Below, one piece after another: positions 8,487-27,333 of a DNA stretch of 30,802 bases (the first letter of the stretch is position 1; each line of letters begins with the position of its first letter). The notes beneath the pieces are model-generated. The model worked only from the letters and a program-made list of their open reading frames with translations. It searched no databases and was not told the origin of the DNA. This stretch comes from a virus. Made by a program: the position numbers and the translations under genes. Location of the stretch: positions 1 through 30,802 of IMG/VR virus record IMGVR_UViG_3300009365_000169; one strand, 5' to 3'.

Positions 8487-8687
8487 TCAATGATAACAAC
8501 TTTGAACTGGGAAGTCAAATCTTTTTGACTTTTTCACCCGATATCCTTTTAAGTTCCTGTACCCAATTTGAGAAAGAATCGAAATGTGTTCCTGATCACA
8601 TAAATCAATCTTTCTGCCGTTTATGAATCCATTTTCACATTCGACATATTGAAACTTTCCATTAATCGTTACATAAAATCTTCGCAT
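8487..8687 (-). CDS. Small protein, unknown function
   Basis: 66 aa, basic, beta-rich N-terminus (RRFYVTINGKFQYVEC). Its last codons contain the -35 and spacer of the 8490-8518 promoter, so the coding sequence does double duty. The start ATG 8687 lies next to an inverted repeat (8690-8732). No recognised family. Confidence 0.5.
   Translation of the reverse strand: MRRFYVTINGKFQYVECENGFINGRKIDLCDQEHISILSQIGYRNLKGYRVKKSKRFDFPVQSCYH
8490..8518 (-). promoter_or_regulatory. TTCAAAG-type leaderless promoter for the 8201-8482 operon
   Basis: Minus strand: AAAAAGAT upstream, TTGACT (8513-8518), a 17-bp spacer containing TTCAAAGTTGT directly next to the -10, and TATCAT (8490-8495). The -10 ends 7 bp before ATG 8482. 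It shares its layout with the promoters at 10246, 14409, 16321, 19358, 27111 and 27306. Confidence 0.75.
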
Positions 8688-8689
8688 GA

Positions 8690-8732
8690 TATATAAAGTA
8701 AAAAAGTAAATACTTCTCTTTCACTTTATATA
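8690..8732. repeat. 10-bp perfect inverted repeat before the 8487-8687 gene
   Basis: TATATAAAGT (8690-8699) and ACTTTATATA (8723-8732) are perfect inverted repeats, 23 bp apart, with a smaller nested AAGTA/TACTT pair. It fills the 52-bp gap between two minus-strand genes and covers the place where a promoter for the 8687 gene would be, so it may be an operator or a weak terminator. No clear -35/-10 pair could be fixed. Confidence 0.55.
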
Positions 8733-8739
8733 ACGTACT

Positions 8740-9069
8740 TTATCCGTTTTTGTTGCAAGAAAACATTAAATTCAGTTTTTTCAATTCCCAATTCCAGTTT
8801 TTATTCGGATATTTTTCCAAATCTCTTTTGGTTGCTCTCTTCAAAGCGATGTACTGATTATACCTTTTATCTCTCGCTGATACATCGACGTTATGCTTCT
8901 CACAGCAAGGCACAATCGCCCATGTTTCTTGAATCTGTTTCCCTGCATAAATCCATGCGTGTTCCCATGTGATCCTTCCTCGGCATTGACCGAAGTGTGC
9001 ATGGATGCACTGTTCCATGAAAGAATCTTTTGCGATTTTTTTTCGAAGCTGTTCAGGAATTTTTTTCAT
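8740..9069 (-). CDS. HNH-family endonuclease
   Basis: 109 aa. The core is a C..C-type HNH variant: a Cys before GRITWEHAW, then AWAIVPCCEKHN-like residues (here TWAIVPCCEKHN), giving the paired histidines of the beta-beta-alpha-metal fold. Phage HNH proteins of this size often nick or cut DNA during packaging or as homing nucleases. Here it lies downstream of Mom-like and Zn-protein genes rather than next to the terminase, so a packaging role is unproven. Confidence 0.7.
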   Translation of the reverse strand: MKKIPEQLRKKIAKDSFMEQCIHAHFGQCRGRITWEHAWIYAGKQIQETWAIVPCCEKHNVDVSARDKRYNQYIALKRATKRDLEKYPNKNWNWELKKLNLMFSCNKNG

Positions 9070-9134
9070 ATTTCATGGAGCATCAGAGTCGGTATTACAC
9101 CGCTTTCTCTCTCTGGATTGAGAGTGTTTTAATT

Positions 9135-9305
9135 TTAAACTACTGATGCGTATTTTTTGGATAAGGTTTTCTTCTTTTCTCCATTTTTGTTTTCAGTTCT
9201 GGTGTCAAAGGCATGACATATCTGTGCTTCTCTGGTTTCTTTCTTTTTTTCAGTTTCTTCACTCCCTCTTTGGAAAGCCTTTTGTAAACATCTGTCGCAT
9301 GTCAC
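9135..9305 (-). CDS. Small Cys-containing basic protein (GTG start)
   Basis: 56 aa if read from GTG 9305, which overlaps the TGA of the Mom-like gene as GTGA; the longer reading from 9362 lies inside that gene. The protein starts TCDRCLQKAF (a CxxC pair), is very rich in Lys/Glu and has one more Cys-His near the centre (QICHAF). It may be a zinc-binding nucleic acid protein coupled to the Mom-like gene. Start codon and identity are moderately certain. Confidence 0.5.
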   Translation of the reverse strand: MTCDRCLQKAFQRGSEETEKKKETREAQICHAFDTRTENKNGEKKKTLSKKYASVV

Positions 9306-9727
9306 CACTTTCCATTGAAAAAGTATTCTGTGACCTTGCTTGAAGTTCCTGTATAAACCCAATTCCCTGCCTGATAAATTCCGCCTGTATGCCCTTGATA
9401 AGTATCAGCGAAAGAAGTGATCAGTTTTATTCCAGGACATTCTTTTTTTAAAAGGATAATCGCAATCTTTATCATTCTGCTGACAGGTGCTTTGTGTCTT
9501 TTCAGAGCCACTCGGACCAATTCACAAACCTGAAATCTACCAAGTGAGTACTGAATATGTGCTGTTGCAGATGCACCAACTCCGAAAAGAATAACACCGA
9601 TAAACTTTTTACTTTCCCATACTCCGATTTTTACCAACTTATTTACTGGTGTCTTTTTTGAATAATGCCAGTTTTCACAAGCAAATTTTGCTGCTTTATG
9701 TGAACAAAAATCAAGCTTCAAACTCAT
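9302..9727 (-). CDS. Mom-like DNA adenine-modification protein
   Basis: 141 aa with the pattern of the Mu Mom family: ACENWHYSKKTPVNKLVKIG at the N-terminus, a GVILFGVGA strand, ELVRVALKRHKAPVSRMI in the middle and ITSFADTYQGHTGGIYQAGN near the end. Mom is a GNAT-fold enzyme that converts adenines of phage DNA to a methylcarbamoyl form, which blocks host restriction enzymes. The gene starts in an ATGA overlap with a ParB-like gene, so both are made from one leaderless transcript. In Mu, mom translation is controlled by the zinc-finger protein Com encoded just upstream; here the upstream protein ends with a CPKC zinc pair. Confidence 0.85.
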   Translation of the reverse strand: MSLKLDFCSHKAAKFACENWHYSKKTPVNKLVKIGVWESKKFIGVILFGVGASATAHIQYSLGRFQVCELVRVALKRHKAPVSRMIKIAIILLKKECPGIKLITSFADTYQGHTGGIYQAGNWVYTGTSSKVTEYFFNGKW

Positions 9728-10239
9728 TGTGGAGTAAAGATTTCATTACATTTCGGACACTCAACCTGTTTTTTTTCATCAAGCCTTGTTTCATTTTCCT
9801 CTGGTTCAAACTCTTCAATCGCTTCCAATTCAATTCCCTCAATATCGATCAATTCATAAACATCAGATTCCAGTAATTCAAACTTGTCCATCCATTCCTC
9901 AAGTGCCTGCTGATTAAAATGTGCATACCTTGAATTAATAATCAGAACCTTTTTCACGGCTTCGGCTTCATCTTTCGCCTGAATCTCAACAACTGGAACT
10001 TTTTCGATTTCATAACCTTCTGCCTGCATGTTTTTTAAAACCTTGAGTCGGTGGTGTCCATCAAGAATTTTTTCCCCCCAAATAAAAAGAGGAACAAACA
10101 TTCCGAACTTAATAATTGATCTCCGAAGTTTTTGCTCTGCTTCTTCTGAAAATTCTTTCAAGTTATCAGGTTGAAACGCCTGCAAATCCTTAATGCTGAT
10201 CTGGTTTTTTGTCGTGACGGTTGCTTTGATTTTTTTCAC
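9724..10239 (-). CDS. ParB-like N-terminal domain protein with C-terminal zinc pair (GTG start)
   Basis: 171 aa from GTG 10239. A promoter -10 box ends exactly 6 bp upstream of this GTG; the ATG at 10266 would be inside the promoter, so I reject it. The ParB/sulfiredoxin-like fold is shown by ISIKDLQAF, LRRSIIKFGMFVPLFIW and the signature ILDGHHRLKVL (GHHR at 61-64). The C-terminus carries ECPKCNEIF. Such phage ParB-like proteins occur with DNA-modification genes; they may be CTP- or DNA-binding, or nucleases. It is translationally coupled to the Mom-like gene. Confidence 0.75.
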   Translation of the reverse strand: MKKIKATVTTKNQISIKDLQAFQPDNLKEFSEEAEQKLRRSIIKFGMFVPLFIWGEKILDGHHRLKVLKNMQAEGYEIEKVPVVEIQAKDEAEAVKKVLIINSRYAHFNQQALEEWMDKFELLESDVYELIDIEGIELEAIEEFEPEENETRLDEKKQVECPKCNEIFTPQ

Positions 10240-10381
10240 AAACGAAGTGTACCGACTTTGAAGCATCGGTCAAATCTTTCAGGTCAAAACGGTTTTCTGG
10301 TTCAGTGGATTCATTATACTTCCTGAACCTCTGTAATTCTTCCTGAGTTATTCCTTCGGAGTCGGTGGACAACCTTTCCAT
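10190..10381 (-). CDS. Hypothetical 63-aa protein
   Basis: Frame open from ATG 10381 with a plausible helical start (GITQEELQRFRKYNE), but it overlaps the upstream gene by 34 bp and the ParB-like gene by 50 bp. Its 3' part doubles as the promoter at 10246-10273. The overlaps are larger than elsewhere, so it may start later (TTG 10372 region) or be minor. Confidence 0.4.
   Translation of the reverse strand: MERLSTDSEGITQEELQRFRKYNESTEPENRFDLKDLTDASKSVHFVCEKNQSNRHDKKPDQH
10246..10273 (-). promoter_or_regulatory. TTCAAAG-type leaderless promoter for parB-like/mom-like operon
   Basis: Minus strand: AAAGAT, TTGACC (10268-10273), a 16-bp spacer with CTTCAAAGTCGG next to the -10, TACACT (10246-10251), then TCGTTT and a GTG start at 10239. 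It lies inside the coding end of the 10190-10381 gene. Confidence 0.7.
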
Positions 10382-10518
10382 TTTCCATTGATTATTCTTT
10401 CTTTGATCTTTTCTTGAATCGATTTCATAAGCCTTTCAGGATGTGGAACACGAAGCCGAAGAGTCGCAACATTCCTGTAAAGCTTCATCAATTCGCAATC
10501 TGATACATTTGTTTCCAT
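10348..10518 (-). CDS. Hypothetical 56-aa basic protein
   Basis: Starts METNVSDCELM at ATG 10518, one base after the stop of the upstream gene (TAA A ATG). Helical and basic (RLRVPHPERLMKSIQEKIKE) with a Pro-rich end. No domain recognised. Confidence 0.5.
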   Translation of the reverse strand: METNVSDCELMKLYRNVATLRLRVPHPERLMKSIQEKIKERIINGKWKGCPPTPKE

Positions 10519-10519
10519 T

Positions 10520-10813
10520 TTACTTGAATTTACGTTTTGAGCAAAATGCACCCTTTTGACAAACTGGAACTTTTGAATCATCAATCTTATCATCACATTC
10601 CACTTGTTTCAGAAGTTGACGAGTAAAACACTTAACGACTCGCCATAATTTGTATGCACAAGATTCTCTGTTTCTTTTTTGGAGTTCCATAATTACTCTG
10701 ATTCTTTCCCTTTGATAAACTGGATCAGTCGTATCAAGTTCTTGCAGAAAATGTTTTGAAATTTCTGAAACTGTATCAAATTTTAAGTTTTGGAACTGTC
10801 CTCGCTCATTCAT
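10520..10813 (-). CDS. Hypothetical 97-aa protein, Cys-rich C-terminus
   Basis: Helical N-terminal half (TVSEISKHFLQELDTTDP). The C-terminal half has Cys at CAYK, KCF, ECDD, VCQK and FCSK, enough for a zinc site. Starts in an ATGA overlap with the gene above. Function unknown; a nucleic-acid-binding role is only a guess. Confidence 0.5.
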   Translation of the reverse strand: MNERGQFQNLKFDTVSEISKHFLQELDTTDPVYQRERIRVIMELQKRNRESCAYKLWRVVKCFTRQLLKQVECDDKIDDSKVPVCQKGAFCSKRKFK

Positions 10814-11103
10814 CTTTTTCTGAAACGTAATAAATATAAATCCCTGTGAACACCCGACCCCCTGAACCTTGGCTTTGACCTCTGGAAAATACTGGACTTC
10901 CTTTCTCTGGTGCTTCGTGCTTTTATTTTTTTTTCACGCAAACACCGATTAATGTCTGCGATATTTCTTATATCTCGCCTGCGGAAATCGAAACATGATC
11001 TCTGGATTATTTTCATGTTTGATTTCCGTGACTCTTGTGGATTGCTTTTCATCATCGCAAATCCAGTCGAACACAACAAAAGTGACACAATTAAAATCTT
11101 CAT
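10810..11103 (-). CDS. Small basic protein with N-terminal signal-like segment
   Basis: 97 aa. Residues 1-16 (MKILIVSLLLCSTGFA) look like a signal peptide, with a possible cleavage after GFA or a membrane anchor; there is no proper lipobox. The rest is strikingly Arg/Lys-rich (FDFRRRDIRNIADINRCL, then REKKIKARSTRERKSS) which is unusual for an exported protein. Ends and starts in short overlaps with its neighbours. Family unknown. Confidence 0.5.
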   Translation of the reverse strand: MKILIVSLLLCSTGFAMMKSNPQESRKSNMKIIQRSCFDFRRRDIRNIADINRCLREKKIKARSTRERKSSIFQRSKPRFRGSGVHRDLYLLRFRKR

Positions 11104-11624
11104 TCTGTTAAAAGCTTTTTAAGTCGATCCTGTTCATTCCTGATCCAGTGATAACATTCTGCGTACCGAAGTTGGTCCTGTCCGATCCGAAGCTGAATCT
11201 TACTCATTCTTTCCTCAAGTAAAATCATTCGATCCTCGTCGGTTTCTGAACCTGCATACTTTACAAGGAATTCTTCACGGGATTCAATTTGTACATCCAT
11301 TGAAGCACGATCTGCCTGATATTTATCCATATCAGCATCAGTTTTCAGCTTTGCATCAATAAGCCTTTGCATTGCTTCACCTGTTTCAAGAACACCTGAA
11401 ACATGCTTGAAATAATCACACTTCGGACATGTTGCAAGTGTTCCACCCCCTCTGATTTCATTCTGGATTTTTGCACAGAACCCACTCGCCACTTCGAAAC
11501 AAAATCGCCTTCCCTCTGATAAGTTCCAAGCCTCAACAGCTGGACAAAGAGAGCGATCATTTTTTACATCAATACAATTTTCAAATTCCCAACAGGGAAC
11601 AAGTTGTTTGTTTTCGGCTGTCAT
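11100..11624 (-). CDS. Two-CW-domain-like Cys-rich protein with coiled coil
   Basis: 174 aa. The N-terminal 75 residues have the spacing of the two-CW domain: C11-W12-E, C17, CPA at 27-29, a Gly-Arg-Arg before C42, C50 and a final C66-x2-C69. The second CW pair is CF here. In bacteria this domain is found next to sensor and chemotaxis modules and its ligand is not established; it probably binds metal. Residues 80-174 form a long charged helix, likely a coiled coil. Being encoded by a phage without an attached sensor domain is unusual. It sits between a 77-aa gene (15-bp gap) and the signal-like protein gene (4-bp overlap). Confidence 0.65.
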   Translation of the reverse strand: MTAENKQLVPCWEFENCIDVKNDRSLCPAVEAWNLSEGRRFCFEVASGFCAKIQNEIRGGGTLATCPKCDYFKHVSGVLETGEAMQRLIDAKLKTDADMDKYQADRASMDVQIESREEFLVKYAGSETDEDRMILLEERMSKIQLRIGQDQLRYAECYHWIRNEQDRLKKLLTE

Positions 11625-11639
11625 TTTTACAATAAATTA

Positions 11640-11873
11640 TTAAGTATGGAGTAATGGCGTGATCAAGGCGGGATTCTTCGATTGCTTCAAATCTTCCTCT
11701 GTAATCGGTTGATCAAGCATTCCAAGAAGTCTTGATTTTTCATGCTCCATACATGCGTGTGCTTCATCAGAAAGGGTACTCCCAATATCTGACTGAGCAT
11801 CATTTATTGCTTGTATCTGTGCTTCGGTGGATTCCTCTTCACAGTTCAGGTATCGATTTATAAGGTTTTTCAT
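11640..11873 (-). CDS. Hypothetical 77-aa acidic protein
   Basis: Acidic helical protein (NCEEESTEAQIQAINDAQ) that starts in an ATGA overlap with the VRR-NUC gene and ends 15 bp before the two-CW gene. No motif assigned. Confidence 0.55.
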   Translation of the reverse strand: MKNLINRYLNCEEESTEAQIQAINDAQSDIGSTLSDEAHACMEHEKSRLLGMLDQPITEEDLKQSKNPALITPLLHT

Positions 11874-12268: not shown

Positions 12269-12558
12269 TATTCCCTTTTATCTGCTTTTTGATTGTGCAT
12301 TTCAAGAGTCACAGCAAGCGTCGTAAGCTTTTCCATTATGCGATCAAATTTTCCAGTGATGCGTAAATCCTCAGCTTCATCTTTTTCTTCGTGTAATCTG
12401 AAATCCTGAACATGTTCAATCGTGTCCTTTTCCAAATCCTCAACCCTGTAATCCAAAACAATCCCCCACCGCACGAGTGCGATCGTTTGAAGAAACAATA
12501 CACCGATCAAAGCAATCGGAACTTTTTTATCAAGATGCCAAGAGTTATCTTCTGCCAT
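12268..12558 (-). CDS. Small membrane protein with coiled-coil tail
   Basis: 96 aa. One transmembrane helix at about residues 14-33 (VPIALIGVLFLQTIALVRWG) followed by a charged helix with heptad-like Leu/Ile spacing (VEDLEKDTIEHVQDF, KFDRIMEKLTTLAVTLEM). The topology (short N-terminus in, long tail) resembles small phage membrane proteins of unknown role. It has its own promoter, predicted to give a leaderless mRNA, and heads the operon to the VRR-NUC and two-CW genes. Confidence 0.6.
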   Translation of the reverse strand: MAEDNSWHLDKKVPIALIGVLFLQTIALVRWGIVLDYRVEDLEKDTIEHVQDFRLHEEKDEAEDLRITGKFDRIMEKLTTLAVTLEMHNQKADKRE

Positions 12559-12564
12559 GCTTGA

Positions 12565-13459: not shown

Positions 13460-13906
13460 TTAAATAATACCTTTTTCGACTTCATACTTCGTAAAATCAT
13501 ACTGATCTGGAAACTCATTCGGAAGTGGGATGTATTCGCCAAGTTCAGCACTCGCCCAATTACGAACCTTTGTCATTAAATCCTCAAACTCAGTCGTTTT
13601 CAAAGTTGTCGTTGTCTTTGTATTAAAGATCAGCTTGATCAATTCATGTGCTGTGACCTCATTGAAAGGGATGCAGTCGAAAAGCATTTTTCCGCTTTTG
13701 TTCAACCCCTGAACCAGATGAGGAACTGGAACTGCCCAATAATAATTATTTTGCTTCAATGATCTGGTTTTCCTGTGCCGCTTGATTTCAATTACAATTT
13801 CTGATCCTGAAAAGTGGAACAGATTCATGCTGAAAGCTGTCGCATCAAAGTGAAGCTTTCCTTTTTCATCAACTTTTCCATGAAATTTATTTTGTGCTTT
13901 ATTCAT
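13460..13906 (-). CDS. NinB/Orf-like recombination protein (putative)
   Basis: 148 aa. Contains the RSLKQNNYYWAVPVPHL motif, followed later by TTTTLKTTEFEDLMTKVRNWA and a final LGEYIPLPNEF, the pattern seen in phage NinB (lambda Orf-like) proteins. Those bind SSB and ssDNA and help load the recombinase, replacing RecFOR. Starts in an 8-bp overlap with the Rad52-like gene, which agrees with a shared recombination role. NinB homology is by motif only. Confidence 0.55.
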   Translation of the reverse strand: MNKAQNKFHGKVDEKGKLHFDATAFSMNLFHFSGSEIVIEIKRHRKTRSLKQNNYYWAVPVPHLVQGLNKSGKMLFDCIPFNEVTAHELIKLIFNTKTTTTLKTTEFEDLMTKVRNWASAELGEYIPLPNEFPDQYDFTKYEVEKGII

Positions 13907-14402
13907 TCAAAAATATTTCTGATCTTTCGACTTCACCGTTTCGGTGTTTTTCAACCAACTTATCAAGTAAAGCCTGCTGTTTTTCAGGTATAAAACATGA
14001 TCTCCCATACTGTTTTACGAAACAAAAAACCTTCGGATAATGCATCAGATCATCACCCAACCCCCAACGGTTCGCAGTCCTCTTCAAAGAATCTGAGATT
14101 CCACCTTTGAACCCTTCGATCTGTGTTTCGCCTGCTCCATCTTCTTTTGTGATCCACTGATCCTCAACCCTGATACTGATCTTACATAAAAACCCACCAT
14201 CGACTTTTGAAATGGTGTTCTGCCAACCTGCTGGACCGAAAGCCTTATCGAACCTTTCATGTACGGTGGACTTTTTCAGATAAGGAACGATCAGGCACAT
14301 TGATTTATCATTCGGCTTTGTCTGTGTTTTCCATTCGACTTCATCAGGAAACATTTTTTCCTGAATCTGCAAAATCCCTCTCTCAAACTGTTCTTTATTC
14401 AT
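13899..14402 (-). CDS. Rad52/Rad22-like single-strand annealing protein
   Basis: 167 aa. Typical Rad52-type core: VPYLKKSTVHERFDKAFGP, GWQNTI, a beta strand with GFLCKISI, VEDQWITKEDGAG, and the GGISDSLKRTANRWGLG helix. Phage members (Sak/DdrA relatives) form rings on ssDNA and anneal complementary strands for recombination-dependent replication. It is the first gene of an operon with the NinB-like and nuclease genes. A strong TTCAAAG promoter lies upstream with its -10 ending exactly 6 bp before ATG 14402, so the mRNA is predicted to be leaderless. Confidence 0.85.
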   Translation of the reverse strand: MNKEQFERGILQIQEKMFPDEVEWKTQTKPNDKSMCLIVPYLKKSTVHERFDKAFGPAGWQNTISKVDGGFLCKISIRVEDQWITKEDGAGETQIEGFKGGISDSLKRTANRWGLGDDLMHYPKVFCFVKQYGRSCFIPEKQQALLDKLVEKHRNGEVERSEIFLNE

Positions 14403-14408
14403 GATCTC

Positions 14409-14436
14409 ATGATAAGAACTTTGAAGAAAAAATCAA
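14409..14436 (-). promoter_or_regulatory. TTCAAAG-type leaderless promoter of the recombination operon
   Basis: Minus strand: AAAAAGAT, TTGATT (14431-14436), 16-bp spacer ending CTTCAAAGTTCT, TATCAT (14409-14414), then GAGATC and ATG 14402. One of the clearest members of the family. Confidence 0.8.
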
Positions 14437-14663
14437 ATCTTTTTCTGATCGAAAAGCTTCCAAAAGCAATCGACACAATAAGTTTCCTGACAAATATTAT
14501 CGTCACGAAAATTTGCCCCCTTATCAAAACGCTTCAATGCGATTTCCTGATTTTCTCCACAATTATGCCCACAAGCTGAACACCTTGCAAGTGCATACCT
14601 CGCACAAGAAAAGCCTTTCTTTATCGCTGTTGAACTGAGTTTTTTACGATAAGTGAAGTCCAT
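14433..14663 (-). CDS. 76-aa Cys-rich (zinc) protein
   Basis: Cys pattern FSCARYALARCSACGHNCG followed about 30 residues later by ICQETYCVDCFW, giving at least two CxxC pairs and possible binding of two zinc ions. The N-terminus is basic. Starts 20 bp inside the end of the upstream gene. Its 3' end overlaps the -35 of the recombination promoter. Function unknown; zinc proteins of this size often contact nucleic acid. Confidence 0.6.
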   Translation of the reverse strand: MDFTYRKKLSSTAIKKGFSCARYALARCSACGHNCGENQEIALKRFDKGANFRDDNICQETYCVDCFWKLFDQKKI

Positions 14664-15802: not shown

Positions 15803-15982
15803 TTATAAATTACTTTTTACTCCAAAGGTGAAAGCATCGACTGTTTGGTATTTGATTTTGTGACCCTCTTTTCTTGATAAAACGTATTTTTTGAGTTCAG
15901 GAATATATGATTTTTCATCATAACCTTGCGACTCAAGTTTCTTGATTTGTGCCTGTACGATCTCTCTTGGAACTTTATACAT
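15803..15982 (-). CDS. Hypothetical 59-aa protein
   Basis: Starts MYKVPREIVQAQ at ATG 15982, which overlaps the stop of the upstream gene by 8 bp (ATGTATAA). A helical, basic small protein (KKLESQGYDEKSYIPELKKYV). Ends 6 bp before the Gp157-like start. No domain recognised. Confidence 0.5.
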   Translation of the reverse strand: MYKVPREIVQAQIKKLESQGYDEKSYIPELKKYVLSRKEGHKIKYQTVDAFTFGVKSNL

Positions 15983-16295
15983 AAAATCTGGATTTATGAA
16001 ATCTTGCGAACCTCTCAGAAAATTCATCAAATAAAAAAACACGATGCTCATTTGTTCGGATATTGAACATGTGAACATGCCAATCAGGATCGACTCGCTC
16101 AAGAGATAAGAACCTGTATGTATCTCGTCTTAACTTATCTGATACTGGACATGTGTAATCGCCTTTTTTATCTTTATAATATTCACCAAAAACAGCATCT
16201 TTCAGGCGTTGCAGTTGTTTATGGAACTGCCTTGACCATGCAAGTTGACTCTCAGAAGGTAAAGTACAATCGGCACTCTCAGATGCTTTCGGCAT
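15975..16295 (-). CDS. Hypothetical 106-aa protein
   Basis: First gene of the operon to the Gp157-like gene; its promoter (16321-16348) gives a short leader of roughly 18 nt. The middle is Arg/Tyr-rich (DKLRRDTYRFLSLERVDPDW) and the end is basic and aromatic (ERFARFHKSRFYV). Possibly a nucleic acid binding protein; no family recognised. Confidence 0.5.
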   Translation of the reverse strand: MPKASESADCTLPSESQLAWSRQFHKQLQRLKDAVFGEYYKDKKGDYTCPVSDKLRRDTYRFLSLERVDPDWHVHMFNIRTNEHRVFLFDEFSERFARFHKSRFYV

Positions 16296-16320: not shown

Positions 16321-16348
16321 ATAATAAGAAGTTTGAAAACAAAGTCAA
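16321..16348 (-). promoter_or_regulatory. TTCAAA-type promoter for the 15975-16295 operon
   Basis: Minus strand: AAAGAT, TTGACT (16343-16348), 16-bp spacer ending TTTTCAAACTTCT, TATTAT (16321-16326). The start codon is 25 bp beyond the -10, so unlike its relatives this one leaves a short leader. Confidence 0.75.
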
Positions 16349-16359
16349 ATCTTTCTTGC

Positions 16360-16954: not shown

Positions 16955-17197
16955 ATGAAAACTTTTATCATCAGAATCAAAGAACAGAAAGTCCCAGTAC
17001 TCGCAGAAAATGAAGAAACTGCGATCAAAAACGCTCAACAGATTTATGATGTTGATATCGCAAATCGACATGCTGAGTGGGAAGAAATCATAAGAGAAGA
17101 GCCAAGGGAAGAAAAAATGTTTTGTAAGTCCTGTGGAGTGATTTTGAATCCATTCTGCCTTGGAAGTGGTTTCTGCCAAGAGGACTGTAAAGTTTGA
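16955..17197 (+). CDS. 80-aa protein with C-terminal zinc motif
   Basis: One of four plus-strand genes. N-terminus IIRIKEQKVPVLAENEETAIKN has the look of a small beta-alpha domain. The C-terminus carries C-x2-C and C-x6-C-x3-C: KMFCKSCGVILNPFCLGSGFCQEDC, a likely zinc ribbon. The start follows CTTCTTAATTTTAAAACC, almost the same leader as the next gene. Function unknown; opposite orientation suggests a separately controlled (early or lysogeny-like) unit. Confidence 0.6.
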   Translation: MKTFIIRIKEQKVPVLAENEETAIKNAQQIYDVDIANRHAEWEEIIREEPREEKMFCKSCGVILNPFCLGSGFCQEDCKV

Positions 17198-17241
17198 AGA
17201 GGAAACTGAACTTATTAATTCACTTTCTTAATTTTTACACC

Positions 17242-17445
17242 ATGAAAACCAAATGTTTTACTTACTGCGGAACAGAAATTACAAAGATTGATATGATCGA
17301 TCTTGAGAAAGATGAAGCTGATTATTGGCGAGCAGGTGACAACAGAGTATTCAAAGGGTATTTTTCACAAATCAGAGCCGACGGTGGACAGAAAGACATA
17401 ATCAGGTTCGCAAGGGAATGTGAAGCAAAGATTTATAACGAATAA
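17242..17445 (+). CDS. 67-aa protein of the plus-strand cassette
   Basis: Starts MKTKCFTYCGTEI at ATG 17242; the frame runs further up, but the start is fixed by the repeated leader element (ACTTTCTTAATTTTTACACC before ATGAAAAC). Mixed alpha/beta with acidic centre (DLEKDEADYWRAGD). The plus-strand gene upstream ends 44 bp earlier, the next starts 2 bp after. Function unknown. Confidence 0.55.
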   Translation: MKTKCFTYCGTEITKIDMIDLEKDEADYWRAGDNRVFKGYFSQIRADGGQKDIIRFARECEAKIYNE

Positions 17446-17447
17446 AA

Positions 17448-17636
17448 ATGATTGATTCCTTGATTATCGCTTTCGAAAAAAGTGTCGAAAAAAATGGAGA
17501 TATTCCATTGACCACCTCTCACATGCTGAACCTGCTGAAAAAGACAAAAGAGCATCAGGATCGTGAAACAAGACATGATGAACTTGAAGACCTGCGAGCA
17601 GAATATGATGCAGAAAGTTATGGCTGTCGTGACTGA
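17448..17636 (+). CDS. 62-aa acidic protein of the plus-strand cassette
   Basis: ATG follows the previous stop by two bases (TAA AA ATG). Helical, acidic C-terminal half (DRETRHDELEDLRAEYDAES). It converges on the HTH gene and the two stop regions overlap by 19 bp. The last codons contain the repeat GTGACTGAACCC. Family unknown. Confidence 0.55.
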   Translation: MIDSLIIAFEKSVEKNGDIPLTTSHMLNLLKKTKEHQDRETRHDELEDLRAEYDAESYGCRD

Positions 17637-17866
17637 ACCCTTTTTTTTGCACGATCAGAATCAAAGAACTCTGTCGCTTCAAAAGGTTTCTTTTCGATAC
17701 GCTTGATCAATTCATTAAAAATCAAAAGAGTTTCTTTATACGGAACTCGATTGTTTTTTCTCCACTCGAAAATTGTTGCACTTGATTTCAGGTTCAATTC
17801 TCGTGCAAGGATTGATGGAGTAAATCGATGCTCTTGCATCCATTCGTTTAAGTCACGTTTGCCCAT
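17618..17866 (-). CDS. Helix-turn-helix regulator (repressor-like)
   Basis: 82 aa. Residues about 1-60 form an XRE-like HTH: LNEWMQEHRFTPSILARELNLKSSATIFEWRKNNRVPYKETLLIF, with the recognition helix at the SSATIFEW stretch. Small phage repressors and Cro proteins have this size and layout. It starts 19 bp inside the end of the wHTH gene, so the two regulators are co-translated. It is a candidate binder of the TTCAAAG spacer element or of the 17-nt repeats, but that is inference. Confidence 0.65.
   Translation of the reverse strand: MGKRDLNEWMQEHRFTPSILARELNLKSSATIFEWRKNNRVPYKETLLIFNELIKRIEKKPFEATEFFDSDRAKKRVQSRQP
17629..17645. repeat. 17-bp repeat, copy 1 (with copy 2 at 18164-18180)
   Basis: GTGACTGAACCCTTTTT here and at 18164-18180, in the same orientation 535 bp apart. 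The flanks are also similar (CTGTCGTGACT versus CGTTGTGACT). Copy 1 spans the stop of the plus-strand 17448 gene and of the HTH gene; copy 2 is inside the wHTH gene. May be a duplicated operator. Confidence 0.5.
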
Positions 17867-18216
17867 TTCAATATTAAGTAAATTCCAGTGATGAAAAGAA
17901 TTGCAATCAGGCTGTATTTATAATTTGTGACAATTATTTCAAGCTTTCTCAGGTGATAAAGTTGCTTCGTTGGCTTTGGAACTTTTTTTCTGTTTATCTC
18001 TTTCAAAGCCTTTCGCCTGTTCTCAACTGTTTCAATTAAGTAATACCTTGCCTGTCCATTCTTATTTATTCGCTCCGTTTGAATCCTGATCTTTCGCCTG
18101 TGCTTCAAAGTCGAAATAACAGCCGAAGGATTCTTTGCACCAAACCCAAGCATTTCAGGCGTTGTGACTGAACCCTTTTTGAAAAGTGTTTGTAAAATTC
18201 TTGTTTGACAATCCAT
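17848..18216 (-). CDS. Winged-helix-like DNA-binding protein with C-terminal membrane segment
   Basis: 122 aa from ATG 18216 (MDCQTRILQTLF). Residues 1-65 look like a winged helix: ILQTLFKKGSVTTPEMLGFGAKNPSAVISTLKHRRKIRIQTER, followed by a wing strand ARYYLIET. The C-terminus has a hydrophobic helix (about residues 100-117, SLIAILFITGIYLIL), so it may be membrane tethered. Such a tethered regulator could sense something at the membrane. A promoter with the TTTCAAA block lies upstream, the -10 ending 11 bp before ATG. It is the first gene of a two-regulator operon. Confidence 0.6.
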   Translation of the reverse strand: MDCQTRILQTLFKKGSVTTPEMLGFGAKNPSAVISTLKHRRKIRIQTERINKNGQARYYLIETVENRRKALKEINRKKVPKPTKQLYHLRKLEIIVTNYKYSLIAILFITGIYLILKWANVT

Positions 18217-18227: not shown

Positions 18228-18256
18228 ACATTACAGAGTTTGAAAGAAAAAGCAAA
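18228..18256 (-). promoter_or_regulatory. Weaker TTCAAA-type promoter for the regulator genes
   Basis: Minus strand: TTTGCT (18251-18256), 17 bp containing CTTTCAAACTCTG, TAATGT (18228-18233). The spacer block and the A-run upstream match the other family members; the -35 and -10 boxes are weaker. Confidence 0.5.
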
Positions 18257-18302
18257 ACTTTTTTCGTTCAACTTCATTCTGTTTTTTGTCAACGGATTTT
18301 TG

Positions 18303-18331
18303 TTGACTTCTCATTCTGGAAAAATTACATT
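18303..18331 (+). promoter_or_regulatory. Plus-strand promoter for the candidate RNA
   Basis: TTGACT (18303-18308), 17 bp, TACATT (18326-18331). The predicted start, about 18338, coincides with the first base of the GCAACGCC stem of the RNA described below. Confidence 0.5.
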
Positions 18332-18337
18332 GACTTC

Positions 18338-18424
18338 GCAACGCCTTTTTGTGAAACTCAACTCAAAAGAACTTCGATTCACATTGTTTGAGCTTCGTGG
18401 GTGTTGCACGGAGTTCTTTTTTTT
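18338..18424 (+). ncRNA. Candidate small RNA with predicted pseudoknot and terminator
   Basis: Two helices interleave. Helix A: GCAACGCC (18338-18345) with GGTGTTGC (18400-18407). Helix B: AAAAGAACTTCG (18365-18376) with CGGAGTTCTTTT (18409-18420). A third pair, TGTGAA with TTCACA, fits inside. Each main helix contains one G-U pair that is lost on the minus strand, which points to plus-strand RNA. Helix B runs into eight T (18417-18424), so it is also an intrinsic terminator. Together with a promoter whose start site falls on helix A, this forms a complete transcription unit of about 87 nt. No known RNA family is recognised. Confidence 0.55.
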
Positions 18425-18454
18425 ATTTATGATTTATGGTTCGTTGGCTTTAAT

Positions 18455-18593
18455 CTCTCCAAGATACTGGATGAATTGAAGCTGACAAAGCGTGAATCAA
18501 TACGCTTTCCAAGAGAGTTCGACTGAAACAGAGCTGATCGCTGGCTGTTTCGACTGAACTGCGTGACCATCATATCACGGGACAAACCAGCGA
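18455..18593. other. Structured element with hairpins and a second potential pseudoknot
   Basis: This part of the 640-bp gene-free region (18257-18894) holds: a 7-bp hairpin (AAAGCGT 18487-18493 / ACGCTTT 18502-18508); a 7+4-bp stem (GAAACAG 18525-18531 / CTGTTTC 18545-18551, and GTTC / GAAC); a 5-bp hairpin (CGTGA 18562-18566 / TCACG 18575-18579); and TCGCTGG (18538-18544), inside the loop of the long stem, which can pair with CCAGCGA (18587-18593). TTCGACTGAA occurs twice. All pairs are Watson-Crick, so the strand cannot be told. It could be RNA or a DNA element such as an origin. An open frame across it on the minus strand does not look like protein. Confidence 0.45.
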
Positions 18594-18608
18594 CAGGCGG
18601 ACACCAAA

Positions 18609-18636
18609 CGGATACCTTCCTTGAAACGACCGTCAA
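18609..18636 (-). promoter_or_regulatory. Possible TTCAA-type promoter reading into the structured element
   Basis: Minus strand: TTGACG (18631-18636), 16 bp with GTTTCAAGG, TATCCG (18609-18614). The -10 is poor. A start near 18602 would lie just before the CGCTGG-containing structure. Confidence 0.3.
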
Positions 18637-18729
18637 GATTTACTTGATCAAGATTGCTCTTTTACATTTCACCTTTTGAAAGAAAGCACAGATTCGTCAA
18701 ATTGCGAAGTCATGCTTTTTGAAGGTGCC

Positions 18730-18762
18730 AAAAAAAAAGAAAAAAAAATTTAAAAAAAATTT
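18730..18762. other. A-tract block, possible unwinding element
   Basis: Nine A, G, nine A, TTT, eight A, TTT in a row, the most A/T-rich stretch in the window. With the stem-loops just to its left and diverging transcription around it, it could be part of a replication origin; no iteron set with even spacing is visible, so this is a guess. The rest of 18640-18894 shows only a CTTGATCAAG palindrome (18643-18652). Confidence 0.3.
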
Positions 18763-18894
18763 ACTCTTTGTTTTCCAAGAGGACAAAAGCCCAGTGCGTT
18801 TCCAGCCGTTTTCCTCTTTGAAATAACCATTAATTGCCAGTTCTTTTTTTTTTAAAACAATCTTCTTCGGTTGTTATCTTAACCACCCTTTAAA

Positions 18895-19062
18895 ATGATA
18901 ACTTATCAGTTAAGAACCTCAGAACAAAGTGATCCGATTGACTTCGACGATGTTCTGAAATTAAGCAAGTTCCTGATTTCACACTTTCAACAGAACCCAG
19001 AATGTGACCACATCTTGATCAGGCACAAAGATAATACTCTGAACTTTGAGAAGAAAAGATGA
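18895..19062 (+). CDS. 55-aa acidic protein, plus strand
   Basis: Reads MITYQLRTSEQSD to LNFEKKR. A beta-strand start, a helix (DDVLKLSKFLISHFQQN) and a final HILIRHKDNTL strand make a compact small fold. The gene is just upstream of and convergent with 19064-19351, with one base between the stops. It follows a T-rich leader (TTATCTTAACCACCC). No family recognised, but composition and position are gene-like. Confidence 0.5.
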   Translation: MITYQLRTSEQSDPIDFDDVLKLSKFLISHFQQNPECDHILIRHKDNTLNFEKKR

Positions 19063-19063
19063 A

Positions 19064-19351
19064 TCAATAAGTACACTCACCATCGAACTTATTCACAACA
19101 TGAGAAATTCCTTTCAAATACCCCTGCATGTATGCAATCTCTTCCCCAGCGTTTTCATAATCTGTTTCATAACAATAACATTCCAGATAATGCCATGCAT
19201 CTTGCTCTGTTTCTGAATCCTCAGAAAAAGAATCATATTCACCGACTGAATCAAGTTCCCCATCATTAAGCATCTTAATAAGCTTTTTAACGCACTTTTT
19301 ATGCTGATCGTCATACAATGAATTCAGTTTCTTTTTTTCAGCTTTATTCAT
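19064..19351 (-). CDS. 95-aa acidic protein, last gene of the rightward block
   Basis: Strongly acidic centre (GEYDSFSEDSETEQDAWHY) with Cys/Tyr (LECYCYETDYEN) and a helix with GEEIAYMQGYLKGISHVV, a pattern reminiscent of the small-gene cluster at 7.7-8.2 kb. Acidic small phage proteins can mimic DNA, but I have no specific match. It has its own leaderless promoter and lies downstream of the lysis genes. Confidence 0.55.
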   Translation of the reverse strand: MNKAEKKKLNSLYDDQHKKCVKKLIKMLNDGELDSVGEYDSFSEDSETEQDAWHYLECYCYETDYENAGEEIAYMQGYLKGISHVVNKFDGECTY

Positions 19352-19357: not shown

Positions 19358-19386
19358 TGTATACTGGACATTGAAAGAAAGGTCAA
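19358..19386 (-). promoter_or_regulatory. TTCAA-type leaderless promoter for 19064-19351
   Basis: Minus strand: AAAAGAT, TTGACC (19381-19386), 17 bp with CTTTCAATGTCC, TATACA (19358-19363), then TTTTAC and ATG 19351. The -35 shares bases with the stop codon of the 28-aa peptide gene. Confidence 0.7.
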
Positions 19387-19469
19387 ATCTTTTCAGAAAA
19401 AAAGATCAGCCAAATCCAAGCTGAAATAATGCTCACAAGCCATACTCGGATGAAAATTTGCTCTCTCAT
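19383..19469 (-). CDS. 28-aa single-span membrane peptide
   Basis: MREQIFIRVWLVSIIS and then AWIWLIFFSEKI: essentially one transmembrane helix with charged ends. Its ATG overlaps the stop of the previous peptide (ATGA). With holin, endolysin and the 23-aa peptide it forms a four-gene lysis block. Tiny coupled membrane peptides in this position could be accessory lysis proteins (antiholin- or spanin-like in role), but no lipobox is present. Not proven to be translated. Confidence 0.45.
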   Translation of the reverse strand: MREQIFIRVWLVSIISAWIWLIFFSEKI

Positions 19470-20411: not shown

Positions 20412-20477
20412 TCTGGTTGACTCAACTGGTTGACTCAACCAGACTCAACCAGACTCAACCAGACTCAACCAGACTCA
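20412..20477. repeat. 10-bp tandem repeats between tail and lysis genes
   Basis: Four exact copies of ACTCAACCAG (20433-20472) plus a partial fifth, preceded by two copies of TGGTTGACTCAAC in which TTGACTCAA is palindromic. The array starts at the stop codon of the baseplate gene. On the minus-strand RNA it could form alternative hairpins (CTGGTTGA with TCAACCAG). Confidence 0.75.
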
Positions 20478-23149: not shown

Positions 23150-23159
23150 GGTATTTTAA

Positions 23160-24005
23160 TTACAAGTAAAACTTTTTATACTTCAACGTCAATTCGTATT
23201 GTATCGATGTTCCTGTTGAAGTGATCGTATAATTATTTGATCCTGTGTCCAAGTGAGGGAATGTTCCATCATATTCCTGAACAGAGCCATTTATAAGAAC
23301 TTGTTTATTCTCCGAGTCAAATTTTATCACTTGACCTGCGGAAATGGAAGTCGTGATTTCAAGTTCCTGAGAAGTTGTATTATTTGAAAGGTTTATCGCA
23401 GTTATTCCAGATGCCGCATTCACCACCATAATGAAAATCGGTTGTGCTTCCGCAGTTCCCTCATTATCTTCATTTTCTGTGAACACGAGAGCCGAAGTAC
23501 TGAACCCTGCAGAAGTAAAAGCCACATCTTGACCGAACGGAACAAGGCATTCAAAAGTTATCTGGAATGGACAAGCTGTGATATCAAAATGCTCATCTCT
23601 CTGTACATCGATATCTGTTGCAGTCGCAATAAACCTTCGATAAGTTCCATCTGCTCGCTTGATATCAAGATTTCCACTTTCCTCTTGAATGCTTTTTTTG
23701 GTCAAATCGATCAGATCATCAAGTGCTGTTTGAGTTGCCGCAATAAACATTCCTGTCAATGTGACCCTTTTAAAATCCCAGAAGTTTGACGAAATAATTC
23801 TCCCATGTGCACGAGGACTTTTTACAGTCAAAAAATCCCGAACAGGTGATCGCTCAATATTTACACTTGAAACACAGATATTATCGTTCTGCATTCCATA
23901 AGTACTGAATACGATATCTTCTGTTGATCCCACACCAGCTTCATCAGCGAGAGTGTTTCCATTATATCGCTTTTCATTATACAGAGCCGATTCATTATAA
24001 GCCAT
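23160..24005 (-). CDS. Distal tail protein (Dit-like)
   Basis: 281 aa. The first ~180 residues show the siphovirus tail fold: NIERSPVRDFLTVKSPR near residue 50, RVTLTGMFIA and DDLIDLTKKSIQEESGNLDIKRADG, which are hallmarks of the Dit family, then an FECLVPFG segment. Dit forms the hexameric ring joining the tail tube to the baseplate. The C-terminal domain is a beta-sandwich ending in YELTLKYKKFYL. It directly follows the tape measure gene, the expected order. Confidence 0.75.
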   Translation of the reverse strand: MAYNESALYNEKRYNGNTLADEAGVGSTEDIVFSTYGMQNDNICVSSVNIERSPVRDFLTVKSPRAHGRIISSNFWDFKRVTLTGMFIAATQTALDDLIDLTKKSIQEESGNLDIKRADGTYRRFIATATDIDVQRDEHFDITACPFQITFECLVPFGQDVAFTSAGFSTSALVFTENEDNEGTAEAQPIFIMVVNAASGITAINLSNNTTSQELEITTSISAGQVIKFDSENKQVLINGSVQEYDGTFPHLDTGSNNYTITSTGTSIQYELTLKYKKFYL

Positions 24006-24007
24006 TT

Positions 24008-26608
24008 TTATACAGAAAATAAGTTTTGCTTTTGGATCGATCTCGTGATCGATAAGGCGATCGAATCCGCAAGATTGCTCCGTGATTCTTCATCTTCAAA
24101 GTTTCCCGAAACAGTAATATTATTATTTACAGTCGGAGAAATTGCACTCTGAGTTTGAACTGGAACTGGTGCAACTGCAGGCTGTGGAGCGACCGCTTCT
24201 CTTCCACCCACTCCGATCGAAGCACCTGCCTTTGCCGCACTTCTTAATGCTGATTTTAATTCTGAAAGCTTTTGTTTTATCTTATCGATCGCTTTCTGTG
24301 TTTTGTCTTGGAGGACTGCGAACCCTGTTTGCATTCCACCTGCCATAACTTTAAATGATTCAAGAACTTCTTGGAACTTTTTTTGTTTCTCAGAAAAAAT
24401 TGCTTTCTCTTTTTCAAGTGCCTGTTCCTGAATAACGATGCTTTGCTCAATCTGCATTTTTTGCTCATTGAACTGTGCAGTCAAAACCTCTTTTCTGTTT
24501 TTCTGATCCTCAATGAATCTTTCAAAGTCTGTCAATTGTGACCTTCGTCGTGCTTCTGATACTTCATCTTCCAGATCAGTTCGACCCTTCAAAAATTCAG
24601 AAAGTGCATCCTGTTCCTGAGATAATTCTTTACGAAGCTTTTTCACATTATCTGTTGCTGTTCCCTCTGAAAGCAAGTCGTCGATCTGCTTCTGTAAATC
24701 AGAAATCTTTTTTTCTTGCTCAATAACAGCTGTTCCCAATTCATCATCAATCCCTTGCAGATTGTTTTTATATTCTTTATTCAGATCGACAAGATCCGCT
24801 TTCAAGCCTTTGATCTTTGCTCGCATTTTTGCCACTTCACTTTCATGTTTTGTTCTGAGTTTTTCAAGTGATTCAACCGCTTCCATTTCAAGAGTACGGA
24901 AACTTGCAGTCACACCCTTGACTGACTTTTCAAGTTTCTCCATTTCTTTCTTTTCTTTCTCTGTTGACGTGCCTGTTGAAGTGAAAGTCCTTGTCGGTGT
25001 CCTCGCTGAGTCCTTGAAAGCCTGATCAATCGCTTTCTTTTCTGCGATCGCCTTTGCCGAAACAGACTTATTTGTTTTTCCAAAAATATCATCTCGGACA
25101 CGCTTGAAGTTTCCACTGATTCCATCCGCAAGAGTTTCCCAGTCCTTTGCGATCTGATCCCCACCGACTTCAAATGTCCTGATCACATCCCGACCCTCAC
25201 GCTGAATATCTTTCAAACCTCTTTTGAATCCCTGTGTAATTCCGTCTGGATCAGTGAACGCCTTAACAAAAAGAGTATTAATTGCGACAAAAAGCCTTCC
25301 GATTCCTGTCGCAAATCGAACGATCGAAGCGGCTACTGTTCCGAGAGTTTTCCCCACAAAAGCAATCACCTTCACAAGTCCAGATGCGATTTCGATCACT
25401 GTCGCAAGAACTTTCCCAAAAGTCTGTGCGGCACTTGAAGCACCATCTGTTTGTGAGGTCAATTCATTCATCGCCTTCACAAGCGATGGAATGACTTCAT
25501 TTCCCATACTGATCATCGTTGCTTCAACATTGTTTTTGAGTATCTGAAATTGTGACTGAAAAGTGGAAATCTGTTTTAAAACCGCTTCACTTAAAGCGTC
25601 TGTTCCTGATTTCATATCACCAAGAGCATCCGTCACAGCTTTATACTGTGCACCAAGTAAAGCCTGAACTGCGGCGAGTGCTTCACCTGATCCGATTGCA
25701 CGAGCGAATAATTGTTCATTTCCTTCCGAAGCATCTTCAAGTGCTTTCAATGCTGAAACATAACCACCTGATTGCTCAATCAGTTCTGGAAAAGTTTTTA
25801 CTCCGAGTTTATTGAATAAATCAATCGCATCTTTTGTCGGTTTCCCAAGAGATATCAAAGATGCTTTTATTGCATTCTGTGAAATCGAAGCTGATTTATT
25901 TACCTGAGTTAATGCAGCGGTTGTCGCTTGTAATTCCTGCAGAGAAATCCCTGCTTCAACAGCGAGAGGTGCGACAAGCCCAAAAGACTGAGCAAGCTGT
26001 GAAACTGTCGTGATCCCATTCTTTACTGTTTTGAAAAGAATGTTCGCCATCTGTTCAGCGTTCAAACCTGAGTTCCTGAAATTGTTCATCGCAAGCGTCA
26101 TCAAGGTTGTCGCTTCCTCAGTCGTTCCCAACCCAGCAACAGCCAAGCGAGTTGAAGATTCAAGCACCGCAAGAGCCTGTGCAGTATCTGTAATCCCTGC
26201 TGATAAAATGGCGTATGCCGAAGCACCCAGATCATCAGCGGATTTCGGTAAAGTTTTTGTCAACTTCAAAATACCTTGTCGCATATCATTGATCGCATCT
26301 GTTGAATCACCTGAAAGCAAAGTCGAAATATCAGATAATCTTTGTTCGAACTGTGCGGACTTCTGAATAACACTCGCAAACCCTGCACCAATTGCAGCGA
26401 ACCCGACAAAGCCTGCAAGTGTTGATCCAAAACCTTCCGTTGTTCTTTTCAGTCTTTTTTCTGCTGTGTTCAATTCATTCATCTTTCGCTTTGTCTGTCC
26501 AGATGATTTCGCAACTCTTTTCAGGTTTTTGTCAACTTTCTTCAAAGCACGGTCTGTTTGATTCACAGCTTTGACTCTGAGTTCCAAATCTTCTCGTGCA
26601 GTTGCCAT
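24008..26608 (-). CDS. Tail tape measure protein
   Basis: 866 aa. Residues 80-330 carry the TP901-type tape measure core (GDSTDAINDMRQGILKLTK, KSADDLGASAYAILSAGI, AIGSGEALAAVQALLGAQ). A hydrophobic stretch at about 395-440 (VIEIASGLVKVIAFVGKTLG) is followed by a long coiled coil (about 560-760) and an Ala/Pro-rich C-terminus. The protein sets tail length and helps DNA pass the membrane. It begins right after the frameshifted chaperone, as in other siphophages, and ends 2 bp from Dit. Confidence 0.9.
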   Translation of the reverse strand: MATAREDLELRVKAVNQTDRALKKVDKNLKRVAKSSGQTKRKMNELNTAEKRLKRTTEGFGSTLAGFVGFAAIGAGFASVIQKSAQFEQRLSDISTLLSGDSTDAINDMRQGILKLTKTLPKSADDLGASAYAILSAGITDTAQALAVLESSTRLAVAGLGTTEEATTLMTLAMNNFRNSGLNAEQMANILFKTVKNGITTVSQLAQSFGLVAPLAVEAGISLQELQATTAALTQVNKSASISQNAIKASLISLGKPTKDAIDLFNKLGVKTFPELIEQSGGYVSALKALEDASEGNEQLFARAIGSGEALAAVQALLGAQYKAVTDALGDMKSGTDALSEAVLKQISTFQSQFQILKNNVEATMISMGNEVIPSLVKAMNELTSQTDGASSAAQTFGKVLATVIEIASGLVKVIAFVGKTLGTVAASIVRFATGIGRLFVAINTLFVKAFTDPDGITQGFKRGLKDIQREGRDVIRTFEVGGDQIAKDWETLADGISGNFKRVRDDIFGKTNKSVSAKAIAEKKAIDQAFKDSARTPTRTFTSTGTSTEKEKKEMEKLEKSVKGVTASFRTLEMEAVESLEKLRTKHESEVAKMRAKIKGLKADLVDLNKEYKNNLQGIDDELGTAVIEQEKKISDLQKQIDDLLSEGTATDNVKKLRKELSQEQDALSEFLKGRTDLEDEVSEARRRSQLTDFERFIEDQKNRKEVLTAQFNEQKMQIEQSIVIQEQALEKEKAIFSEKQKKFQEVLESFKVMAGGMQTGFAVLQDKTQKAIDKIKQKLSELKSALRSAAKAGASIGVGGREAVAPQPAVAPVPVQTQSAISPTVNNNITVSGNFEDEESRSNLADSIALSITRSIQKQNLFSV

Positions 26609-26610
26609 GA

Positions 26611-26823
26611 TTATTTTTTATTAAGATTTTCACTTTTAATATTACCGATCTCAATAAACTTCGCAATAATTTCAGTGTCTGTGTCCATATACTGATCATG
26701 AGTCCATCCGAAAGTTTCACAAAATTGGTACGCATTCCATTCATCTGGTAATGCGTTTTTTCCTTGAAAACCGTTTTTCATCATAAACTTGATCGATCGT
26801 CTTTCCTCGGTGCTTAATCGACT
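26611..26823 (-). CDS. Tail assembly chaperone, -1 frameshift extension (GT-like)
   Basis: Nine A (26823-26831) near the end of the 26814-27104 gene allow a -1 slip. In that frame the reading continues without a stop: SRLSTEERRSIKFMMKNGF, then LPDEWNAYQFCETFGWTHDQ, YMDTDTEIIAKFIEIGNI, ending at the TAA 26611-26613, two bases before the tape measure ATG. The fused protein would be 165 aa. In lambda (G and GT) and relatives a similar slip just before the tape measure gene makes the long chaperone that binds the tape measure protein. WNAYQFCETFGW and the position fit. No ribosome binding site lies in front of this frame. Confidence 0.75.
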   Translation of the reverse strand, partial: SRLSTEERRSIKFMMKNGFQGKNALPDEWNAYQFCETFGWTHDQYMDTDTEIIAKFIEIGNIKSENLNKK

Positions 26824-27104
26824 TTTTTTTTCTGAGAATAAATATCATTACATTTCCCATACAGGAATACGAAATCTTTTTCATCCAGATCATCAAGTTC
26901 TTGATCTGTGAATCCTGAAATCATTTTGATCAAGTTATCCTGATTATTTTTTTCTGCTGTCATCAAGCTTGATGCAGAAACTTCTCCACTGTTATCACGT
27001 TGAAGCCCTTCGAACCCTTTCAGTTCGTACTCACGAACTTCACGATGTTTCAAAGACTCTCGAAGTTCAACCTCTTTTTTGGATTCTGGAAGTGTAATTT
27101 TCAT
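26814..27104 (-). CDS. Tail assembly chaperone (G-like)
   Basis: 96 aa, helical and acidic (KKEVELRESLKHREVREYELKG; DQELDDLDEKDFVFLYG). Ends QKKKVD, in the A-run used for frameshifting. Such proteins coat the tape measure during tail assembly and are absent from the virion. A leaderless promoter lies 6 bp upstream of ATG, so the whole chaperone-tape measure-baseplate operon starts here. Confidence 0.75.
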   Translation of the reverse strand: MKITLPESKKEVELRESLKHREVREYELKGFEGLQRDNSGEVSASSLMTAEKNNQDNLIKMISGFTDQELDDLDEKDFVFLYGKCNDIYSQKKKVD

Positions 27105-27110
27105 AAAAAA

Positions 27111-27139
27111 AGGATACAGACTTTGAAACCCGTGTCCAA
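27111..27139 (-). promoter_or_regulatory. TTCAAAG-type leaderless promoter of the tail operon
   Basis: Minus strand: AAAAAAGA, TTGGAC (27134-27139), 17 bp with TTTCAAAGTCTG, TATCCT (27111-27116), then TTTTTT and ATG 27104. Four phased AGGTACA-like repeats lie just upstream (27164-27213). Confidence 0.7.
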
Positions 27140-27163
27140 TCTTTTTTATAAAAGCTGTGCATT

Positions 27164-27213
27164 TGTACCTGAAACCTGTACATTTGTACCTGCTGTGTAC
27201 CTCTTTTATACCT
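27164..27213. repeat. Four helically phased TRTACCT repeats upstream of the tail promoter
   Basis: TGTACCT at 27164, 27185 and 27196 and TATACCT at 27207 (plus strand), i.e. offsets of 21, 11 and 11 bp, all on one face of the helix. Two of them are part of CATTTGTACCTG, and one is in the palindrome GTACATTTGTAC. This looks like a multi-site activator or repressor region for the promoter at 27111-27139. Confidence 0.6.
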
Positions 27214-27228
27214 GTTTATTATCACATA

Positions 27229-27266
27229 CGGAAAAAACACCCCTGAATAATATGGTGTCTTTTCCG
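27229..27266 (-). terminator. Intrinsic terminator in the leader of the tail operon
   Basis: CGGAAAAGACACC and GGTGTTTTTTCCG (minus strand) can pair over 13 bp with one G-U, which exists only on the minus strand. The six T inside the 3' arm serve as the U-run. It ends the transcript from the promoter at 27306-27333. Confidence 0.65.
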
Positions 27267-27299
27267 CAAAACAATACCGAAATATGAAGGAACTTCGGT
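27229..27299 (-). ncRNA. Candidate ~70-nt small RNA
   Basis: The strong promoter at 27306-27333 should start near 27299. The RNA would begin with a hairpin (ACCGAA with TTCGGT, 8 bp counting the flanks) and end at the terminator 27229-27266. It holds no convincing reading frame, and the tail operon has its own promoter further down. So it is either a free sRNA or a leader that is terminated unless an antiterminator acts. No known family recognised. Confidence 0.5.
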
Positions 27300-27305
27300 A
27301 TAAGA

Positions 27306-27333
27306 ATCATAAGAACTTTGAAAAGCAAGTCAA
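27306..27333 (-). promoter_or_regulatory. TTCAAAG-type promoter for the small RNA/leader
   Basis: Minus strand: AAAAAGAT, TTGACT (27328-27333), 16 bp ending TTTTCAAAGTTCT, TATGAT (27306-27311). Best match to the family. Confidence 0.8.

Follow-up and report, generated by a model that had tools for sequence, protein, structure and literature searches.

The virus record IMGVR_UViG_3300009365_000169, 30.8 kb from an uncultivated siphovirus and referred to here in its full length as the window, raises the question of why a set of its promoters should share a conserved block in the spacer between the -35 and -10 hexamers. A preliminary description of this DNA had proposed that the block is a phage-specific element read by a protein, and this idea survived all of the tests that we ran. 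Judged from the sequence, the element is quite probably bound by a protein, and there is about an even chance that it is a phage-specific operator which is superimposed on sigma70-type promoters and probably bound by a repressor.

The seven strong minus-strand sites of the preliminary description (8490, 10246, 14409, 16321, 19358, 27111 and 27306) are all present. When aligned they consist of AAAGATTTGAC (with one T>G and one C>T change), a gap, TTCAA(A/T)(G/C)T(T/C), 2 nt (3 at 19358) and a -10 box of the form TANNN(T/A); the -35 region has the variants GATTGGAC at 27111 and GATTTGAT at 14409. The gap had been thought to vary between 5 and 7 nt, but is 6 nt at six sites and 7 nt at one (8490). 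The block had been taken to end in TYCT; it is in fact TTCAA(A/T)(G/C)TYNN, with CT coming next in just three of the seven sites.

A matrix with flexible gaps was built on the seven sites, with leave-one-out scoring as the control. The sites score 34-40 bits (28-36 bits when left out), and in 150 first-order Markov genomes the best site averages 12.9 bits with a top score of 23.0 bits. The next-best score in the window is 18.2 bits, on the plus strand within the terminase gene, and the next-best on the minus strand is 16.5 bits, just 5' of an operon encoding two putative regulators. In addition, GATTTGAC-N6-TTCAAAG is found with up to two mismatches seven times on the minus strand and not at all on the plus strand, whereas dinucleotide shuffles give on average 0.4 matches over the two strands together. 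The block alone is not special, as TTCAAAGT occurs six times on the minus strand (five of them at the sites) and five times on the plus strand; the specialness resides only in the coupling of this block to AAAGATTTGAC and the -10. If the block had been equally frequent away from gene starts it would have been a poor operator, but the coupled matrix is silent away from the starts of transcription units. A different sample yielded the same phage as contig L010 (99.9% over 2.8 kb), which adds about 6.75 kb beyond the window, through the head genes. The matrix did not find the element in this extension, where no score exceeds 18.2 bits. The phage genome may be incomplete.

The conservation is not confined to the spacer. 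The letters AAAGAT, which begin upstream of the -35 and run into it, are invariant in all seven sites, and because conservation reaches upstream of the -35 in this way the element is composite. The -35 hexamer is kept near consensus in six of the seven sites and the -35/-10 spacer is 16-17 bp, but the -10 boxes are imperfect throughout; AAAGA and the spacer TTCAAAGT are more invariant than the -10, which may be TATCCT, TACACT or TATACA. An imperfect dyad, TTTGA-N8-TCAAA, runs across both conserved patches; its half-sites are spaced 13 bp centre to centre at six of the sites and 14 bp at the remaining one (8490). At five sites the -10 box lies 6-7 nt before an ATG or GTG, from which leaderless mRNAs are predicted, and at these promoters the dyad centre, counted from the start codon, is at -26.5 to -28. 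We also considered the dyad as an RNA hairpin and rejected it, as a single strand of the element has no greater tendency to fold than shuffled sequence and the element is upstream of the transcript.

The units downstream match those to which the sites had been assigned, namely recombination, ParB/Mom, small-gene, tail and small RNA units. All seven composite promoter/operators are on the minus strand. The first, at 27306-27339 (AAAGATTTGAC-ttgctt-TTCAAAGTT-ct-TATGAT; 39.4 bits), has a two-hairpin RNA downstream. This RNA (27226-27300, minus strand; about 75 nt) begins at the predicted start of the promoter and has no Rfam match; its two perfect hairpins (-31 kcal/mol, z -7.3), the second with a terminator-like U-run, make it a putative phage small RNA. 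The second, at 27111-27144, is the GATTGGAC variant and gives a predicted leaderless start to 26814-27104, a tail-assembly chaperone-like gene followed by tape measure, Dit and other tail genes. The third, at 19358-19392 (TTCAATGTC-cag-TATACA; 34.1 bits), is at the predicted leaderless start of a 95-aa acidic protein (19064-19351). The fourth, at 16321-16354 (TTCAAACTT), is followed, after some 20 nt of leader, by a 106-aa gene (15975-16295) and a Gp157-like gene. The fifth, at 14409-14442, is at the predicted leaderless start of 13899-14402, which encodes a Rad52/Erf-like annealing protein and has a NinB-like gene in the same unit. The sixth, at 10246-10279, precedes a predicted leaderless GTG at about 10239, in a unit encoding a ParB-like protein and then a Mom-like DNA modification protein (9302-9727). 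The last, at 8490-8524, has the 7-nt gap and a 17-bp spacer, scores 39.3 bits and precedes a predicted leaderless ATG at about 8482, the start of a small gene (8201-8482).

Outside this phage only scattered copies were found. There are nine exact matches to the element in IMG/VR, each in single copy in its stretch, and 29 in GTDB (257 Gb), one per fetched stretch or contig. These matches are near the chance rate and a following -10 is rarely evident. A second IMG/VR pattern, which included the -10, gave three matches, all single-copy. In 380 Patescibacteria genomes there are 27 matches, compared with about 20 for the reversed control, which is the chance level. As only single chance copies occur elsewhere, the element is specific to this phage among the sequences searched, and none of the sequenced hosts employs it as a standard promoter. 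The preliminary description would have been undermined by host promoters with the same spacer block, but no GTDB contig carries more than one exact copy and the Patescibacteria are at the chance level.

Promoter-like sequences without the block are present at 2925, 12565 and 20300, as had been described, and there is a further one at 6413; those at 6413 and 12565 are leaderless. As these lie in the same phage, neither the promoter nor leaderless initiation needs the block. Letters more conserved than the -10 lie where base-specific contacts of sigma70 are not known, which implies another reader. The arrangement that we favour is as follows. Seven transcription units would start from sigma70-type promoters carrying the binding site AAAGATTTGAC-N6-TTCAAAGTY, made up of two conserved patches that flank and overlap the -35, with the centre of the dyad some 27 bp 5' of the start. 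The reader would be a DNA-binding protein of the phage, probably acting as a dimer or as a monomer with two domains, and when bound it would cover about -37 to -15 and block the host RNA polymerase. The recombination, ParB/Mom, tail, small RNA and small-gene units would in this way be held down or timed together. Repression is our first choice over activation, at a probability a little short of even, because a protein over about -37 to -15 would exclude the polymerase.

Two proteins were named as candidate readers in the preliminary description, and their genes share one operon on the minus strand. The first is an 82-aa Cro/YdaS-like helix-turn-helix (HTH) protein (17618-17866), with a weak family match (NCBIfam carph-isopro, E 0.0026, below the cut-off) and a four-helix single-sequence AlphaFold model of low confidence (pLDDT 60) with which a Foldseek search was uninformative. 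The second is a winged-helix-like protein (17848-18216) with a weak match to HTH_39 (E 0.03), a model that is also of low confidence, and a C-terminal hydrophobic helix that is probably a membrane segment. Because this helix reads as a membrane segment, the protein is less likely to be an operator-binding repressor; it may be a membrane-anchored DNA-binding protein. The HTH protein, singled out by its position and weak similarity, is the leading candidate for the reader, at a low probability. The special sigma factor that had been offered as another option found no candidate gene among the proteins scanned. A degenerate copy of the element (18228-18261, minus strand; AAAGTTTTGCT-ttttct-TTCAAACTC-tg-TAATGT) lies 5' of the two-regulator operon and is a plausible autoregulatory site, through which the operon of the HTH protein might control itself. 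The winged-helix gene may, as proposed, be under the same motif, although this degraded copy before the operon is statistically weak. Of the two weaker sites of the preliminary description, the one at 18228 is thus borderline, while the one at 18609 has a score of about 5 bits and is indistinguishable from background; neither was counted in the statistical set.

Several observations count against an operator read by this protein. The copy at 18228 is not significant statistically, as 10% of random genomes contain a site that reaches its 16.5 bits, and neither a family nor a fold could be assigned with confidence to the HTH protein. The dyad is weak, with 5-bp arms and, once the letters of the -35 are allowed for, p of about 0.04-0.06, and is only suggestive because the -35 already dictates part of its left arm; its outer flanks are asymmetric and there is an extra base between the arms at 8490. 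Neither an integrase nor a CI-like repressor was recognised among the phage proteins, so a classical role in lysogeny is unsupported. Finally, relatives were sought by terminase, tail-tube, portal and Rad52 searches, and these found only the same phage (L010) and distant ones (terminase about 21-34%, portal about 30% identity). The repeated motif was not found in any of the distant relatives, nor an analogous repeated promoter block in those tested, and the searches yielded no relative near enough to reveal conservation of the site.

A phage protein bound beside sigma region 4 might instead switch the promoters on jointly during infection, in the manner of MotA in T4. Several of the -10 boxes are poor (TATCCT, TACACT, TATACA), as is expected where help is needed, the site is common to early- and late-looking units, and the promoter at 27111 has a weak -35 as well as upstream tandem repeats. 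In the T4 middle promoters, however, the MotA box, with its TGCTT core and its centre at -30, takes the place of the -35 and is combined with an excellent -10 (PMC2988021). This architecture was not found at the seven sites, where the -35 is near consensus in six and the -10s are all imperfect. Additionally, proteins that occlude a promoter typically sit at a position such as about -27, where the dyad is centred. MerR-type activators act on promoters with long spacers, unlike the 16-17 bp seen here. An activator site is in our view unlikely, although it is to be taken seriously.

We give a low probability to the idea that there is no special protein and that the element is an optimised strong promoter for the host RNA polymerase, with an A-tract or UP-like AAAGA and a favourable spacer, copied to several units. 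There is an A-rich run before every site, and the T4 early 'uber' promoters carry additional consensus regions without a dedicated regulator (PMC2988021). Those promoters, however, have excellent core elements and a TGn (PMC2988021), whereas here the -10 is poorer than the block. The same phage also has the block-free promoter-like sequences described above. The TTCAAAGT at -23 to -16 matches no familiar polymerase contact, and we know of no sequence-specific contact of the polymerase at this position. It is very improbable that the element is simply an ordinary promoter used by the host or by one of its alternative sigma factors. All starts lack a Shine-Dalgarno sequence, so that the rules of the host are perhaps unusual, but the GTDB matches never exceed one per fetched stretch, and the Patescibacteria genomes are not enriched over the reversed control.

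Cluster K mycobacteriophages provide the nearest precedent for an operator overlaid on promoters: their extended start-associated sequence (ESAS), present in seven copies in Adephagia, is 46-47 bp long and combines SigA-like hexamers with an imperfect inverted repeat (PMC11373665). It is a proposed operator or promoter before dispersed genes with no known reader, and has 15-17 bp repeats and 17-18-bp spacers, usually beside a 13-bp SAS before the start codon (PMC3203893; PMC11373665). In both cases a long multi-copy intergenic sequence holds a -35 and a -10 with an overlaid imperfect inverted repeat; here there are seven copies with sigma70/SigA-like hexamers and a 16-17 bp spacer. The sequence and the phage are unrelated, however, and the starts here are predicted to be leaderless. 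Inverted repeats of 15-17 bp were not found, only the dyad with 5-bp arms, and the SAS GGGATAGGAGCCC has no match at up to two mismatches. By analogy, the element would work like an ESAS-type promoter/operator set without being a member of the ESAS family.

The other systems compared are more distant than ESAS. In Cluster A mycobacteriophages, the L5-type repressor operators or stoperators are 13-bp asymmetric sites bound by a monomer, also away from promoters (PMC9283540). They resemble the present element in their many dispersed copies, in one orientation relative to transcription, and are read by a phage repressor, but all seven sites here are on promoters. The L5 stoperator consensus GGTGGMTGTCAAG has no match here at up to two mismatches. 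The T4 promoters are likewise repeated genome-wide with conserved letters beyond the sigma70 core, but neither the MotA nor the early type is described with a TTTGA-N8-TCAAA dyad. Phage-repressor multi-site operators as a general class have a repeated site that overlaps the promoter core, which is also the case here. Arrangements resembling this one are thus familiar from other phages.

The window also encodes a portal, terminase, tail tube, tape measure, Dit and M15 peptidase, the recombination, Gp157-like, ParB-like and Mom-like genes given above, and a tRNA-Glu. None of 33 open reading frames (ORFs) in the window and L010 has a Shine-Dalgarno sequence. Terminase relatives are present in 37 of the 380 Patescibacteria genomes, many of them, at 22-25% identity, and Shine-Dalgarno sites are mostly absent at these loci and in the nearer viral relatives. 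However, the Patescibacteria terminases are closer to one another than to the window terminase, and the E-values obtained with this set and with the larger phage database cannot be set side by side, so Patescibacteria as the host stays a guess. A more speculative idea, to which we give a low probability, is that a phage without Shine-Dalgarno sequences, possibly of Patescibacteria, runs its recombination, replication and tail genes through one operator on leaderless promoters, with a single protein setting the lytic programme at initiation. To our knowledge, such a global regulon would be the first described in a phage of that group. The element offers a short, testable piece of DNA that defines a regulon tied to leaderless transcription in a phage without cultured relatives, and could be used as a signature to find its kin. 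Given the parallel with ESAS, solving the reader of either would inform the other.

None of the 39 genes curated in the window ends in TAG (25 end in TAA and 14 in TGA), and TAG stops were likewise not seen among the longer ORFs of L010; relatives do use TAG. Abutting the promoter at 27111 upstream are two 21-bp tandem direct repeats (27151-27192, minus strand; CAGGTACAAATGYACAG core, inner dyad GTAC-N4-GTAC), for which 0.05 are expected by chance and which are a possible site for a second regulator. Three adjacent ORFs at 16955-17636 on the plus strand, the first with a zinc-ribbon-like motif, read like real genes and are convergent with the minus-strand regulator operon in a genome otherwise on the minus strand. 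There are intergenic tandem 10-bp repeats at 20412-20473 (GACTCAACCA after CTGGTTGACTCAA copies), which can form inverted repeats. Finally, about 800 bp at 18255-19064 are without a convincing gene; the part from 18380 to 18602 is moderately RNA-structured (z -1.9), and the region is possibly an origin or a non-coding RNA.

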